A stretch of 34,710 bases of DNA from Sphaerobacteraceae bacterium. GTDB taxonomy: Bacteria > Chloroflexota > Chloroflexia > Thermomicrobiales > UBA6265. The translations under genes and the position numbers were made by a program. The stretch spans positions 1 through 34,710 of the forward strand of contig JADDPH010000049.1 in the NCBI GenBank assembly GCA_016781925.1, written 5' to 3'. Under the pieces are notes generated by a model, which saw only the letters and a list, made by a program, of their open reading frames with translations, was not told where the DNA came from and did no database searches. Every line of letters begins with the position of its first letter. Position 1 is the stretch's first letter. Below are positions 23,531 to 34,039 of this stretch, piece by piece.

Positions 23531-27812
<4,282 letters not shown>

Positions 27813-28181
27813 GTTATCTCAGCAGTTTCCAGCTCCCGTTGCCGCTGAGTGGCCTGGACCATGAGGCTTCGCCGAGACGTTTCCTCTTTGTGCCACTCCT
27901 ATAACGTGGCGGTGAACTGGTCAGGTAGGAGTTGGTCCTCGGCGTCACCTGCTCGGTCTAGGGGTGTACGTGCTGGCTCTGTTGGCAGTCCTGATTCCGG
28001 CCCACAACCGGTCTCAGAACGCCGCGGTTTGTCAGCGTCAAAAGGCTTAGGCGCCCGAACAGTGACACGCTATGGTACGCTTCTGCCCCTGCGGAGGATC
28101 GTCCGTAGGGCCTCGGTCCGTCTGCGTCCAATTATTGGGATGTCCGTTGCTGGATCCTCGTCCCAGTCAGGAACTGAGGCC
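27813..28181 (+). other. 369-base non-coding leader ahead of the ebo cluster
   Basis: The frame that continues upstream from eboD is open but has no conserved content and low-complexity Ser/Arg codons, so I treat this as intergenic. It must hold the 3' end of the DnaQ-UvrC message and the ebo promoter. A short palindrome CCAATTATTGG sits at 28128-28138. A weak -10 candidate (TATGGT, about 28073) lacks a good -35. No T-run terminator is evident. Confidence 0.5.
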
Positions 28182-29429
28182 ATGCAAGGTACCGTCTTGC
28201 AACCGATCCATCAGGTTGCGGAGGTGACGTTTCGTTACCCCATATTCTTCACGCACGATTTGTTTGCGCCGGAGAATTCTCTTCTAATAGACGTTATGGG
28301 AGCCGGGCGGGACACAAGCGGTCCAAGCAAGGCCATCGTGGTCCTCGATCGTGGGCTGCTTGAGCAGAATCCGGACCTGCTCGATACCATCGAGGCTTAT
28401 GCCGGGCACCATCGCACCTCGTTCAATCTGGTTTGCCCTCCGCTCGTTGTCGAAGGTGGGGAACAGGTCAAGAATGACCCTGGCAACGTTGCGTCCGTCC
28501 ATCGCGGGATCCACGAGTTCGGCATTGACCGGCACTCCTATGTCGTCGCGGTCGGTGGCGGTGCGGTTATCGACATGGTCGGATACGCTGCCGCAACGGC
28601 GCATCGTGGCGTGCGTCTCATTCGGGTGCCCACGACGGTTCTTTCCCAGAACGATTCGGGTGTCGGTGTCAAGAACAGCGTCAACGCGTTTGGCAAGAAG
28701 AACTTTCTCGGCACGTTTGCCCCCCCGTATGCCGTGCTCAACGACTTGGCCTTTCTGACCACGCTCTCGGACCGTGACTGGCGCAGTGGCATTTCGGAGG
28801 CAATCAAAGTTGCCCTGCTGAAGGATGCTGATTTCTTCGCCTTCATCGAGGAGCACGCCCAGGAGCTAAACCGACGAGACATGATGGCCATGGAGTGGCT
28901 TGTCTACCGTTGCGCTCAGTTGCACCTGGAACACATAGCGACGGGCGGAGACCCTTTCGAGTTCGGCTCCTCGCGCCCCTTGGACTTCGGGCACTGGGCG
29001 GCGCACAAACTCGAGCAGCTGACGGATTACTCCGTGCGTCACGGCGAGGCCGTGGCCATCGGCATTGCCTTGGACTCGACTTATGCCCACCTCATGGGGC
29101 TGCTTCCCGAGGCCGACTGGCGGCGAATCCTCCGCGTGACCACGGCTGTGGGACTCCCCGTCTATGTCCCCGAGTTGAGTGAGGACGTGGCCGAGCGCGT
29201 TGATCGGCGCAGTGTCCTCAGTGGCCTGAACGAGTTTAGGGAACACTTGGGTGGACAGCTGACCATCATGCTTCTGGAGCGGATTGGGCGGGGTGTCGAG
29301 GTGCACGAGATGGACGAGGATCGGATTTCGGAGAGCATCCGGCTCCTCAAGGACTACCAAGCGAACGATTCCGCGGCGGACATTCATGGAGGTGTGGCAT
29401 GGCCACGGACGTCAGCAGCTGCCCCCTGA
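28182..29429 (+). CDS. eboD: EboD, 3-dehydroquinate synthase-like enzyme of the ebo cluster
   Basis: 415 residues from ATG 28182; ATG 28140 is also possible. It has the sugar-phosphate-cyclase fold: a NAD-binding [20 protein letters not shown] near residue 120, [34 protein letters not shown], and metal-site histidines in [11 protein letters not shown] and [12 protein letters not shown]. The NFLGTF-PP and [12 protein letters not shown] blocks separate it from housekeeping AroB (which usually has AEVIKYG), and match the ebo-cluster type. The reaction and substrate are unknown. It overlaps the next small gene by 31 bases. It is the first of six tightly packed genes. Confidence 0.9.
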
Positions 29430-29734
29430 CCCAGCGGCAGTTGATCGACGAGTACTTCATCGAGCACCGCACGAAGGTGCTGGACATTGCGGCCTTCCTT
29501 GACCGCATGGATCGGGCGTCGGCACGAGATGGGGAAGATGACTTCCGGTTCGTCGCCTTCCGTGAGACGCTTCAGGAACTTTGCTCGGGCGTGCCTGGGC
29601 GGATCGAGCGCGTTCAGATGATCCTCAGTGACCAGACGACGGAGCCGCTGGCCGAGTTGGATCGGAAGGCCGCGTACGGCGCCTCCATCCAACGCGTACC
29701 GGAGCAGGAGGAGGTGCGCGATGGAGTACATTGA
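29399..29734 (+). CDS. unrecognised 111-aa protein inside the ebo cluster
   Basis: 111 residues from ATG 29399 with GGAGGTG upstream, within the 3' end of eboD. I do not recognise the family. It looks all-helical and charged ([45 protein letters not shown]), with no signal peptide or membrane segment. It occupies the place between eboD and eboB, and its stop overlaps the eboB start region by 14 bases. EboA is normally much longer (over 200 residues) and I see no resemblance, so I do not call it EboA. Strong coupling on both sides shows that it is a real, co-translated member of the cluster. Confidence 0.8.
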
Positions 29735-30551
29735 TCTGCACGCCCACATGGTCTCGCGCACGACGGATGACTACGAGCGGATGGCTCTCAGCGGTTGCCT
29801 GGCCCTGACCGAGCCTGCCTTCTGGGCCGGATACGACCGGCGCTCGGTTGATGTCTTCGCCGACTACTTCGACCGCCTGACCGACTTCGAGCCAAAGCGG
29901 GCCGCGCTGTACGGCATTCAGCACTACACCTGGCTCTGCCTCAACCCGAAGGAGGGGGAGGACCGTGAGCTAACACAACAGGTCTTGGACATCATCCCGG
30001 AGTTCCTCGACAAGCCAAACGTTCTTGGTATTGGTGAGATCGGCCTCAACCGGGTGACCCGCAACGAGCTCGCGACCTTCCAGGATCACGTCGACCTTGC
30101 CGTCGCGCACGACCAGCTCATCCACATCCACACCCCGCACCTCGAAGACAAGTACAAGGGAACCAAAACCATCGTCGACGCCCTGGTCGCAGACGGCCGA
30201 GTCCAGCCGGGCCGGGTGATGGTCGACCACGCAGAGGAGCACACGCTCCCAATGATTCTCGAGCGGGGCTTTTGGACCGGCATCACCCTCTATCCGACGA
30301 CGAAGACATCTCCAGGGCGTGCCGTCGATATGGTGGAGCGGTACGGTAGTGAGCGAATTTGCGTGGCTTCCGCCTGCGACTGGGGCCCCAGCGACCCCCT
30401 TGCCGTGCCGCGCTTTATCTTGGAGATGCGGCGTCGCGGTCACGGCGAAGAGTTCATCCGCAAGATCGTCCTGGAGAACCCCGCCGCGTTCCTTGGCCAG
30501 TCCCCGAAGTTCCAGTTGCCCCACGCGCGCGCAGCTTCGGTTGTCGGCTAG
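29721..30551 (+). CDS. eboB: EboB, TatD-like metal-dependent hydrolase
   Basis: 276 residues from ATG 29721, behind AGGAGGAGG. It is an amidohydrolase/TatD-type barrel: DLHAHM (two His), GIGEIGLN (Glu), IHIHTPH (His), VDHAEEH (His) and [10 protein letters not shown] (Asp) give the full set of binuclear metal ligands. TatD proteins hydrolyse phosphoesters in nucleic acids, but the ebo branch ([17 protein letters not shown]) has no known substrate. It overlaps the preceding small gene and lies 20 bases before eboE. An upstream extension of the frame to 29628 is in the small gene and not conserved. Confidence 0.9.
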
Positions 30552-30571
30552 CGGGCGAAGAAGGAGCGGCG

Positions 30572-31780
30572 GTGCGACTCGGGCCCGATGGGTTCTTCCA
30601 ACTCACGTATTGCACGAACATCCATCCAAGCAACGGGTGGAACAGCGTGCTTGCGAACCTTCGTCGCTACGGGCTCCCGCTAAAGACCCGATTCGCCCCC
30701 GACGTACCGTTTGGGATCGGCCTCCGGCTTTCCGGCGAAGAGAGCCGCGAGCTGCTGGAGGGAACCAACCTTCCGGATTTCAAGTCGTTCCTTGATGAAC
30801 ATGGGCTCTACGTCTTCACGCTCAACGGCTTTCCCTATGGCCCCTTCCACCAGCAGCCTGTCAAAGCCGAGGTCCACGCGCCGGATTGGCGTGATGAGGA
30901 GCGCGTCCGCTATACGCTGAGGCTGGTTGAGATTCTGGCGACCCTTCTCCCTGCCGAGATGGACGGCGGCATCTCGACCAGTCCGCTCTCCTACGGCGCG
31001 TGGATCGATCAGAACGACCCACCCACGTGGGATCTCCTCGTCAAGAACGTAGTGCGGGTCGCTGCGGCGATCGCGCAGGTTCGGCAAGATCGGGGCAAGC
31101 TGATCCACCTCGACATAGAACCGGAGCCCGACGGGCTGCTCGGGACCTGCGCTGCGCTGACCGATTTCTACGAGACTCGGCTCCTTCCCCTGGGTGCTCC
31201 ACTCCTCGCGGAGGAGCTTGGCATCCCGCTCGCCGAGGCGCATGCCTGCCTCCTCGACCACATCCGGGTCTGCTTTGACGCATGCCACGTCGCGGTTGGC
31301 TACGAAGACCCATCCCAGGTACTCGACCGCTTCGCGCAAGTGGGAATCCGGGTTGGCAAGGTCCAGGTGAGTTCAGCCGTGAAGGTACTGTTGCCGGACG
31401 ATCACCACGTCCGGAGGGAGACGTCCACCTCGTTGGCGGCGTTCGCTGAGTCCACCTACCTCCATCAGGTCGTTCAGCGCAACCGAGACGGATCGTTCGT
31501 CCACTTCCCCGATCTTCCGGACGCCCTTCCCTCCATCTCCGACCCAGACGCGGCCGAGTGGCGGATCCACTTCCACGTCCCGGTCTTCGTCCAGCGTTAC
31601 GGGACTTTCGCCTCCACCCAGGACGACCTGCGGTCCGTGCTCGCGCTTCTGCGTGAGCGCCGATTCACCAACCACTTGGAGATCGAGACGTACACCTGGG
31701 ACGTGTTGCCGGCCGCGCTGAAGATGGATTTGCTCGATTCGATCGGTCGCGAGTACGCCTGGACCCTCGATGTCTTCTGA
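30572..31780 (+). CDS. eboE: EboE, sugar-isomerase-like TIM barrel protein
   Basis: 402 residues from GTG 30572 with AAGGAG at 30561-30566. The N-terminus FQLTYCTNIHPSNGW is the hallmark of ebo-cluster EboE. Metal-binding-like positions occur along the barrel: HLDIEPEPDG, FDACHVAVGYEDP, KVQVSSAVK, IHFHVPVF and LEIETYTWDVLP at the end, as in xylose-isomerase-type TIM barrels. The substrate is unknown. An alternative upstream start would extend into eboB and is unlikely. It overlaps eboC by 11 bases. Family assignment is firm by motif; function is only by association. Confidence 0.9.
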   Translation: MRLGPDGFFQLTYCTNIHPSNGWNSVLANLRRYGLPLKTRFAPDVPFGIGLRLSGEESRELLEGTNLPDFKSFLDEHGLYVFTLNGFPYGPFHQQPVKAEVHAPDWRDEERVRYTLRLVEILATLLPAEMDGGISTSPLSYGAWIDQNDPPTWDLLVKNVVRVAAAIAQVRQDRGKLIHLDIEPEPDGLLGTCAALTDFYETRLLPLGAPLLAEELGIPLAEAHACLLDHIRVCFDACHVAVGYEDPSQVLDRFAQVGIRVGKVQVSSAVKVLLPDDHHVRRETSTSLAAFAESTYLHQVVQRNRDGSFVHFPDLPDALPSISDPDAAEWRIHFHVPVFVQRYGTFASTQDDLRSVLALLRERRFTNHLEIETYTWDVLPAALKMDLLDSIGREYAWTLDVF

Positions 31781-32657
31781 GCGGGCGCTCCATTACCGGC
31801 ACCCGTGGTGGGGGCGCTTGCACGGGTATCTCGCCCTCGCGCGCGTGTCGAACAGTCCAACCGTGGTGAGTAACGTGCTGACTGGAGCGGCGCTTGGGGG
31901 CGCGCTCCGCCCGGACGGGGTTGTTGTGGCCCTTGCCGTGGCCATGGTCCTGTTCTACACGGCGGGCATGTATTTGAACGACTTGTGCGACTACGCGATT
32001 GATGTCCGAGAACGCCCTGGCCGGCCCTTGCCTTCCGGCTCCGTCTCCCGGAGTGCGGCTGGTGTCGGTGTTGTCGCGTTCTTCGCCGTTGGAAGTGCTC
32101 TGCTCTGGCTGGTCGGGACGGTGCCGTTTGGGACTGGCCTTCTTCTCATCGGCGTCATCGTCGTCTACGACCTGTGGCATAAGACCAATCCGCTCAGCCC
32201 GCTCCTCATGGCCGCAGCGCGTGCCCTGGTCTATGTCACGGCGTTCACCGCCTTCGCGTCCGTGCTCTCACGCTCGCTGATTGCCTGGGCGAGCCTGCTC
32301 TTCCTCTACGTGGTCGGTCTGACGTACATCGCCAAGACCGAAACCGGCCCACGGCTGACGGGATACTGGCCGGCGGTTCTGCTCTTCCTGCCGGCAATCG
32401 CCTTCGTAGCAGAAACCCCGGACATCAGGACCCTGCCCCTCCTCCTGCTTTTTGCTGGGTGGGTTGCCTACAGCGTCTCGTTCGTCTACCGGGCGGGTCA
32501 CCGGAGCGTTGGCCGTGCTATCGGGTACCTCATTGCTGGTATTGCGCTGCTTGACGCGCTGGCATTGGCGGTAGCCGGCTCAGGGATTGGGGTAGTCCTT
32601 GCGCTGGTCGCCTTCGGCTCGACGCTCTTCTTTCAGAGGTACATTAGGGGAACCTGA
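31770..32657 (+). CDS. eboC: EboC, UbiA-family membrane prenyltransferase-like protein
   Basis: 295 residues, about eight or nine hydrophobic segments, so an integral inner-membrane protein. The first aspartate-rich motif is N70-D71-x-x-D74-x-x-x-D78 (YLNDLCDYAIDVRERPGRP) and the second is weak (VVYDLWHKTNPLSP). UbiA enzymes transfer polyprenyl groups from diphosphates to aromatic acceptors using these aspartates and Mg2+. The start lies inside eboE (11-base overlap) and the next gene begins two bases after the stop. In ebo clusters this is thought to be the membrane component; the acceptor and prenyl donor are unknown. Confidence 0.9.
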   Translation: MSSERALHYRHPWWGRLHGYLALARVSNSPTVVSNVLTGAALGGALRPDGVVVALAVAMVLFYTAGMYLNDLCDYAIDVRERPGRPLPSGSVSRSAAGVGVVAFFAVGSALLWLVGTVPFGTGLLLIGVIVVYDLWHKTNPLSPLLMAAARALVYVTAFTAFASVLSRSLIAWASLLFLYVVGLTYIAKTETGPRLTGYWPAVLLFLPAIAFVAETPDIRTLPLLLLFAGWVAYSVSFVYRAGHRSVGRAIGYLIAGIALLDALALAVAGSGIGVVLALVAFGSTLFFQRYIRGT

Positions 32658-32659
32658 GC

Positions 32660-34039
32660 ATGCGGAAGACTGCCGTTCTCAACGTTGTTGGACTCACTCC
32701 CGATCTCCTCGGAGAGGCAACGCCGCGCTTGCGCGCGTTCGTCGACCGCGGCAAGTTGGCAACCGTGACGCCGACGTTGCCGGCCGTGACCTGCACGGCG
32801 CAGTCGACCTACCTGACCGGCACGCATCCGGATCAGCACGGGGTCGTCGCCAATGGCTGGTACTTTCGAGACGAGAGCGAGATCAAGTTCTGGCGGCAAT
32901 CCAATGCGCTCGTCCAGCGACCCAAAATCTGGGAGACGGCCCGGGCGCTTGACCCAACGTTCACCTGTGCCAACCTCTTCTGGTGGTACAACATGTATTC
33001 CTCGGTCGATTACTCGGTCACCCCGCGACCGATGTACCCAGCCGACGGCCGCAAACTTCCCGATATTTACACGCAACCAGCCGATCTGCGGCCGGCGCTC
33101 CAGGAGAAGTTTGGGCAATTCCCGCTCTTCAACTTCTGGGGACCGAACACCTCGATCCGTGCCACCCAGTGGATCGCGGACGCCGCGAAGTGGGTTGCGG
33201 AGCACTACGATGTGACCCTCACGCTCGTTTATCTGCCCCATCTCGATTACGGCCTTCAGCGCTTTGGACCCGACGATCCCCGGATGGCGGCGGAACTGCG
33301 AGAGCTAGACACCGTCTGCGGCGACTTGATTGACTTCTACCAGGCGCGAGACACCGAGGTGATTGTGCTCTCGGAGTACGGGATCGTGCCCGTCTCGCGT
33401 CCCATCCATCTGAACCGGCGGTTGCGGGAGCAAGGCCTGATCGCGGTGCGCGAGGAACTGGGCAGGGAGTTGCTTGACGCTGGGACAAGTGCCGCCTTTG
33501 CCGTGGCTGATCATCAGATTGCCCACGTGTACGTCAACGACCCGGCTCGCTTACCGGAGGTTCGCTCGCTGTTGCAGGAGACGGAGGGCGTCGCCGAAGT
33601 GCTAGACGAGGCCGGGAAGCGGGCGCACCATCTTGACCACCCCCGGTCCGGGGAGTTGGTCGCCCGCGCCGCGCCGGATGCCTGGTTTACCTACTACTAC
33701 TGGCTGGACGATCAGCGGGCGCCAGACTATGCACGGACGGTCGACATTCATCGCAAGCCCGGGTTCGACCCGGTCGAGTTGTTCCTCGACCCAACGCTCC
33801 GCCTGCCGAAGGCCAAGGTGGGCGTGACACTGCTCAAGAAGCAGCTCGGCTTTCGCTATCTGATGGACGTCATCCCGCTTGACGCGTCCCTCGTACGCGG
33901 CTCGCATGGCGTTCCAACAGCCCCGGGGGCAGGACCGCTGTTCGTGACCCAGCGGCCCGACTTCCTCGCAAGGTCAGAGATCGACGCAACCGATGTCTGT
34001 GGCTTGATCCTGAGCCACTTGCAGGGTGATGCTGGGTAA
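32660..34039 (+). CDS. eboF: EboF, alkaline phosphatase/nucleotide pyrophosphatase-superfamily protein
   Basis: 459 residues from ATG 32660. The superfamily core is recognisable: first metal Asp at about D15 (GLTPDLLG), nucleophile region T44/T46 (PAVTCTAQSTYLTG), THPDQHGVVANGW, and the C-terminal His in RGSHGVP. At the place where nucleotide pyrophosphatases have D..GH and SDHG, this protein has HLDYGLQRFGP and VLSEYGIVP, so one His, one Asp and one His ligand are replaced. No signal peptide is visible, so it is probably cytosolic. It ends the cluster; a palindrome follows 22 bases after its stop. Confidence 0.88.
   Translation: MRKTAVLNVVGLTPDLLGEATPRLRAFVDRGKLATVTPTLPAVTCTAQSTYLTGTHPDQHGVVANGWYFRDESEIKFWRQSNALVQRPKIWETARALDPTFTCANLFWWYNMYSSVDYSVTPRPMYPADGRKLPDIYTQPADLRPALQEKFGQFPLFNFWGPNTSIRATQWIADAAKWVAEHYDVTLTLVYLPHLDYGLQRFGPDDPRMAAELRELDTVCGDLIDFYQARDTEVIVLSEYGIVPVSRPIHLNRRLREQGLIAVREELGRELLDAGTSAAFAVADHQIAHVYVNDPARLPEVRSLLQETEGVAEVLDEAGKRAHHLDHPRSGELVARAAPDAWFTYYYWLDDQRAPDYARTVDIHRKPGFDPVELFLDPTLRLPKAKVGVTLLKKQLGFRYLMDVIPLDASLVRGSHGVPTAPGAGPLFVTQRPDFLARSEIDATDVCGLILSHLQGDAG

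Follow-up and report, generated by a model that had tools for sequence, protein, structure and literature searches.

The ebo locus and its last gene

The window, that is, the whole 34,710-nt stretch of DNA analysed here, carries a run of ebo genes in the order eboD, candidate eboA, eboB, eboE, eboC and, as the last of them, eboF.

28173..29429, forward strand: eboD, encoding a sugar phosphate cyclase/3-dehydroquinate-synthase-like protein (start not fixed; PF01761, 119 bits; PRK06203, 591 bits)
29399..29734, forward strand: candidate eboA, 111 aa, named for its position in the run and for similar frames found in a few loci
29712..30551, forward strand: eboB, encoding a TatD-like hydrolase (start not fixed; PF01026, 30.7 bits against a cut-off of 27)
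30443..31780, forward strand: eboE, encoding a TIM-barrel protein (NF035939, 469 bits against a cut-off of 250)
31770..32657, forward strand: eboC, encoding a UbiA-type prenyltransferase (PF01040, 63 bits)
32660..34039, forward strand: eboF, 459 aa, with the PF01663 fold and a depleted set of metal ligands

The D-A-B-E-C-F order seen between positions 28173 and 34039 differs from that reported in eustigmatophytes and in many bacteria, which is A-B-C-D-E-F (PMC5133447). The start of eboE is not fixed, the NF035939 match beginning at residue 54 of the 30443..31780 stretch. The product of eboC has EboC as its top NCBIfam model, yet at 93 bits, below that model's cut-off of 250, and the candidate eboA product has no family match in Pfam or NCBIfam. 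At 25557-27812 on the forward strand we also noticed, by eye, what we take to be DnaQ-like exonuclease and GIY-YIG (UvrC/Cho-like) stretches in one frame.

The ebo cluster occurs in many bacterial phyla and in some algal plastids and has no established biochemical mechanism; in Nostoc it is needed for scytonemin production, apparently at the export step. EboF has been termed a putative hydrolase or pyrophosphatase homologue (PMC5133447, PMC6282210) and proposed as a possible prenyl-diphosphate phosphatase, and the Pfam PF01663 seed included five EboF sequences (PMC5133447). While the family, the operon and the mutant phenotype are known already, we found no statement of metal-ligand loss in EboF in the open-access literature searched. 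The main texts of PMC5133447 and PMC6282210, as far as available, do not discuss its zinc or catalytic residues (the term "active site" occurs once in PMC6282210, concerning EboC), and the accessible text of PMC6092422 does not mention EboF.

The coordinates, reading frame and DYGLQ, SEYGI and SHG motifs given for eboF in the initial annotation all agree with the 459-aa translation. The protein scores 219 bits against PF01663, where the Pfam cut-off is 23, and no other PF01663 protein was found in the source genome, an assembly put at 82% complete. Its high similarity to EboF proteins and the ebo cluster in its own window place it in the EboF subfamily; to the phosphonoacetate hydrolase model TIGR02335, in contrast, it scores 16 bits against an NCBIfam cut-off of 407.55. 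The stop-to-stop frame measures only 463 aa, so that there is no space for a signal peptide, and the first predicted strand already spans residues 4 to 9. The NPPs examined in PMC9173814 had predicted signal peptides.

Metal-ligand positions across the EboF family

An AlphaFold2 model of EboF, built on an alignment of 73 sequences, reached a mean pLDDT of 95.7 and a pTM of 0.93. The predicted fold is that of the alkaline phosphatases and NPPs, in keeping with the initial annotation: the model superposes on XacNPP (PDB 2gsn) with a Z of 30.4 and an rmsd of 2.8 over 336 residues (VIA; Foldseek E 6.3e-18), on ENPP5 with a Z of 31.3, and on phosphonoacetate hydrolase with a Z of 28.8.

Residues of EboF were paired with those of XacNPP through alignments to 2gsn and 1ei6, taking the XacNPP site to comprise, besides T90 and H214, what we presume to be numbered D54, N111, D210, D257, H258 and H363. 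The numbers T90 and H214 are those of PMC9173814. In NPP3, two zincs are held by D168, T206, D326, H330, D373, H374 and H483, and N227 touches the phosphate (PMC6052110). The corresponding EboF residues (V10, T44, N65, D196, Q200, E239, Y240 and H416 for D54, T90, N111, D210, H214, D257, H258 and H363) are listed below with their frequencies among the EboF members described further on, together with two segments specific to the family.

32687..32689, forward strand: Val10, where NPPs have the first metal-ligand Asp (XacNPP D54); Val in 159, Ala in 31 and Pro in 13 of 203 members, Asp in none
32789..32791, forward strand: Thr44, matching the NPP nucleophile T90; retained in 203 of 203
32852..32854, forward strand: Asn65, matching the phosphate-binding Asn of NPPs; retained in 202 of 203
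33245..33259, forward strand: D196-Y-G-L-Q200, in which D210 is kept (Asp in 206 of 206) and H214 is replaced by Gln (206 of 206)
33371..33385, forward strand: S238-E-Y-G-I242, in which D257 is replaced by Glu (Glu 179, Asp 25, Gly 2 of 206) and H258 by Tyr (Tyr 205, His 1 of 206)
33902..33910, forward strand: S415-H416-G417, at the position of the last-ligand His (H363); kept in all 189 members aligned there, the other 17 of the 206 having no letter in this column
33509..33526, forward strand: D284-H285-Q286-I-A-H289, a conserved turn specific to the family; D284 and H285 in 206 of 206, Q286 in 198, H289 in 184
33749..33778, forward strand: H364-R-K366-P-G-F-D370-P-V-E373, a conserved segment specific to the family; H364 in 205, K366 in 206, D370 in 206 and E373 in 205 of 206

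Four of the seven zinc ligands of the NPPs are thus replaced in the window's EboF (D54, H214, D257 and H258), and T44, D196 and H416 are kept. All of D54, D257 and H258 of the Zn2 site are gone; of the Zn1 ligands, D196 and H416 remain and H214 has become Q200. The nucleophile-position Thr and the phosphate-binding-position Asn are both present; the initial annotation had noted the Thr-rich nucleophile segment and the last SHG as remaining. With H214 gone, and with it the three Zn2 ligands besides the Thr, EboF is very unlikely to work by a dizinc mechanism. The loss of key ligands proposed from the sequence proved real and family-wide, although the number replaced is four rather than three, the difference being the first Asp, which had been thought to remain. 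An ungapped alignment of LNVVGL with SIDGL of 2gsn sets Val10 on D54, and the nearby D15 (GLTPD) differs among relatives. In the same alignment to 2gsn, DYGLQ falls on D210-xxx-H214, SEYG on SD257H258G and GSHG on the H363 segment; the last piece alone scores only 1.8 bits, and the assignment of H416 rests on the GSHG match plus the fold. In the predicted secondary structure, V10 lies directly past strand 4-9, T44 opens helix 44-53, D196 sits within helix 194-202, E239 and Y240 follow strand 233-237, and H416 is in strand 414-416, presumably where the topology of the superfamily would place them.

The family counts derive from a first set of 91 sequences, namely 11 from the window's phylum and 80 named loci, kept out of 592 relatives, in at least nine phyla by record titles. 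Top-scoring matches from genomes sampled in the phyla of Burkholderiales, Pirellulaceae, Desmonostoc and Pedosphaera records were added later, as were, in two of those phyla, very divergent matches. Two genome searches matched 230 and 110 genomes strongly; about 60 and 50 loci were read from them, and the lowest-scoring fragments of a further search were left out of the counts. The fetched loci held 254 matching frames, 226 of them distinct. Against the EboF profile, 206 of the distinct frames score at least 303 bits and 20 score 97 bits or less, with none in between, so that a gap of about 200 bits sets EboF members apart from ordinary PF01663 proteins. The window's EboF is 91% identical to the copy carried by a Thermomicrobiales MAG (L014) and 55 to 71% identical to the other 79 of the 80 named loci.

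Four of the seven ligands are replaced in 178 of the 206 members, three in 24 (those with Asp239 and Tyr240), two in a single member, L243, and at least three in the 3 members without a letter at the D54 column. None has the full NPP set, and the claim of the initial annotation that the usual two-zinc centre cannot form is supported. Judging from these alignments, ligand loss across the members read, accompanied by a fixed replacement set, is close to certain. Among 1,000 bacterial NPP sequences the conservation of H214 reaches 99.9% (PMC9173814), which makes the EboF clade a sharp exception.

Invariance of SEYG, put forward as a check, was very nearly borne out for its Tyr (205 of 206), while position 238 is Ser in 178 members and Gly in 28 and the Glu also varies; L024 and L054 read S-G-Y-G. 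Homologues with SDHG, which were to count against ligand loss, are absent from the 206 members. The sole G-D-H member, L243 (7088-8392, reverse strand), carries Ala in place of D54 and Gln in place of H214; in the tree described below it nests among A-D-Y members, so that its site has not been restored.

The replacements are themselves constrained. Ranked by conservation, six of the eight active-site columns fall within the top 34 of the 422 columns (hypergeometric P = 4.4e-6, treating columns as independent), and these six include Q200 and Y240, neither of them a ligand; the V10 (0.78) and E239 (0.87) columns are less fixed than the other six. In addition to the two segments listed above, N252 (206 of 206) and W342 (205 of 206) are fixed specifically in this family, and the invariant ionisable residues hold across phyla down to about 33-40% identity.

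Published mutants bear directly on what such losses would mean. Of the six Asp/His zinc ligands of ENPP1, five cannot be changed to Ala without abolishing activity on both substrates, whereas H362A, at the equivalent of XacNPP H214, still cuts ATP; likewise, XacNPP H214A crystallises without Zn1 and its ATP activity survives (PMC9173814). Loss of H214 alone would hence not end all catalysis, because ENPP1 without H362 still cuts ATP. For the annotated function, a dizinc hydrolase, the PF01663 match, the NPP fold and the published reading (PMC5133447) can be cited, but with four ligands replaced in most members, and with single mutants at the D54, D257 and H258 equivalents inactive in ENPP1 (PMC9173814), we consider it highly improbable. 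As published single mutants at most such ligands are inactive, there is no support for calling EboF a "phosphate hydrolase" of the dizinc kind.

Misalignment was ruled out as a source of the substitutions at D54, H214 and D257/H258 by 20 controls, PF01663-type proteins scoring under 75 bits that were aligned by the same EboF profile. The controls have Asp at the D54 column in 13 of 14 cases (the exception being Phe in L106), Thr in 17 of 17, Asn in 17 of 17 and Asp at D210 in 5 of 5. Letters were available for 6 of the 20 each at the H214 and D257/H258 columns, and for none at H363; these give His at H214 in 5 of 6 and Asp-His at 257-258 in 6 of 6. The apparent Gln of the sixth H214 control, L013, is a misalignment, its own D-G-L-Y-H sitting upstream.

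Descent, distribution and genomic partners of EboF

A tree was built from 90 EboF members, comprising every one of the 51 with scores below 600 bits plus 39 drawn from the remaining 155, and the 20 low-scoring proteins served as its outgroup. In it EboF forms one clade with a support of 0.989, within which the V-E-Y, P-E-Y, A-E-Y and A-D-Y states occur. No ligand-bearing lineage was seen at the base of the clade in this tree. The simplest account of these sequences is that EboF would have arisen by descent from the NPP/alkaline-phosphatase fold as a discrete clade, its dizinc centre having been dismantled once, in the common ancestor, before the family spread.

Gene decay was rejected as an explanation: the window's copy is free of stops, two of the four positions that changed show no variation, or almost none, in their new state, and dN/dS is low (0.011-0.270), a sign of purifying selection, in the 11 of 14 EboF pairs for which it could be computed, the other 3 being saturated. 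As the ligand loss is family-wide, the new set invariant and dN/dS low, the sequence record indicates a pocket that is re-purposed, not decayed.

The distribution of EboF in the window's phylum is patchy. Matches were obtained in 12 of 400 genomes; one of these, L013, is an ordinary NPP-type protein, which leaves 11 including the window's own, and 11 other listed genomes of the window's family and order were not matched, although the Thermomicrobiales MAG L014 holds its 91% identical copy. Transfer and loss are alternative explanations. In the phylum sampled around the Pirellulaceae record G405, 230 of 294 genomes have a best EboF match at E <= 1e-73, and 7 further genomes match only at about 1e-8 to 1e-6. 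G405 itself has a second, divergent EboF-like reading of 387 bits (C490:69-1289, reverse strand) with a TGA and a TAG inside, near the contig end, which may be a broken copy or an assembly problem.

By tblastn, the 80 named loci contain EboE in 67 cases, EboD in 66, EboB in 62, EboC in 60 and EboA, represented by likeness to the window's candidate, in 8; at least one of EboA-E is found in 70, and none in 10, some of which lie on short contigs. Profile searches of divergent loci located partners within 3 kb as follows: EboC (8), EboB (4) and EboD (4) among 14 planctomycete loci, and EboC (5), EboD (3) and EboB (2) among 20 verrucomicrobial loci; EboA was left out of these counts, its iterated profile having drifted onto EboE frames. 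A UbiA gene also adjoins EboF in L184 and L243 (Pfam), directly upstream in the latter. Thus, the prenyltransferase is the commonest EboF partner in the divergent branches, and EboD and EboE are slightly commoner in ordinary clusters.

When 40 loci from the planctomycete and verrucomicrobial phyla were taken with wide flanks, profiles detected no EboB-E in 24, some of them cut by contig ends; for the phylum sampled around G405 the figure is 10 of 20 EboF loci. Because those 24 loci have no detected ebo partner, the link between EboF and EboC is not a general one. Around stand-alone copies, no new common partner emerged; shared frames were mainly ones overlapping EboF, the synteny of one lineage, and UbiA. 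Solitary eukaryotic EboF copies have also been published (PMC5133447), which means that EboF can work without the other five.

Readings of the EboF pocket and comparison with known systems

The initial annotation offered three outcomes for a protein of this kind: a single metal, the use of other residues, or a binding protein. Since an invariant, family-specific ionisable set accompanies the kept Thr, Asn, Asp and His, the sequence favours the second. We tentatively regard EboF, at slightly less than an even chance, as a cytosolic enzyme with a rebuilt, metal-free pocket that acts on an anionic ebo metabolite. The pocket would retain Thr44 and Asn65 at the nucleophile and phosphate-binding positions, along with Asp196 and His416; the lost ligands would have given way to Val/Ala/Pro10, Gln200, Glu/Asp239 and Tyr240, with invariant Asp284-His285, His364, Lys366 and Asp370 added. 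We infer that these new residues line the pocket and that side chains, not zinc, might bind a small anionic molecule of the cytosol and act on it; this would probably be a phosphorylated or prenyl-phosphate compound in the pathway of the prenyltransferase EboC. A homologue of EboC farnesylates quinoline acids in vitro (PMC9235831).

A wider version of this proposal makes EboF the type member of a widespread clade whose chemistry in the ebo pathway is wholly metal-free and protein-only, performed around the old nucleophile Thr by Q200, E/D239, Y240, D284-H285, H364, K366 and D370; this we hold more tentatively still, as a possibility that may well prove wrong. Speaking against any metal-free pocket, D196 and H416 are both Zn1 ligands in NPPs and would suit one relocated metal, and 25 divergent members have Asp239, L243 among them also His240, which is part of the second metal site.

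A further reading is a single-metal enzyme with a relocated site, in which D196 and H416, joined by H285 or H364 in place of H214, would hold one metal. The near-invariance of all four residues is consistent with it, as is the ATP activity that persists in ENPP1 and XacNPP without the H214 equivalent (PMC9173814). The site that was lost (D54, D257 and H258), however, is the nucleophile-activating one, where Ala leaves ENPP1 inactive, and we judge this reading unlikely.

The published phenotype bears on the binding alternative. Deletion of eboF in Nostoc blocks scytonemin, with the monomer staying cytoplasmic, and the other ebo deletions made behave in the same way, which the authors take as pointing to a role in transport (PMC6282210). 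EboF might accordingly be a pseudoenzyme whose pocket binds a metabolite or prenyl carrier and hands it to EboC or an exporter. The accumulation of the same unmodified cytoplasmic monomer in all mutants made, including that of eboF (PMC6282210), would fit, as would the loss of four of seven ligands, including the whole nucleophile-activating site except the Thr; moreover, invariant residues are equally expected of a specific binding protein. Yet Thr44 and several ionisable residues do not vary from one phylum to another, which goes beyond the usual needs of binding, and on balance we think this reading rather unlikely.

The metal-free enzyme, if true, would represent an unusual path for a superfamily of metal enzymes that has been studied very thoroughly. 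About ten residues are named here, and mutating them would separate a metal-free enzyme, a single-metal enzyme and a binding protein. In any case, given the family-wide loss of the dizinc centre, the label phosphodiesterase/pyrophosphatase should not be assumed for EboF.

Sulfatases keep metal on the nucleophile side. The EboF pattern, in which the Thr and the Asn stay along with all Zn1 ligands but one, would be the reverse. In YejM/PbgA, another member of the alkaline phosphatase superfamily, enzyme versus non-enzyme is disputed in print; it belongs to a different subfamily from EboF, its Asp268 and Thr302 are conserved, and it binds Mg (PMC7576196). The EboF proteins of Yurchenko 2016 (PMC5133447) and Klicki 2018 (PMC6282210) are of the same family as ours, with the same operon partners. 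PhnA (PDB 1ei6, 3szy), the phosphonoacetate hydrolase compared above, resembles EboF in fold and has a profile match to it over residues 185-338, covering the D-Y that opens the D-x-x-x-H motif as well as the strand past DHQ; in contrast to EboF, it still has its metal ligands wherever the two align (V-D-G, D-Y-V-Q-H, D-H-G). With XacNPP (PDB 2gsn/7n1s) and ENPP1-7, EboF has in common the fold, the nucleophile Thr, the phosphate-binding Asn and the D210 and H363 equivalents; different from them, it lacks D54, H214, D257, H258 and space for a signal peptide, and carries the DHQ and HxKPGxDPxE segments.
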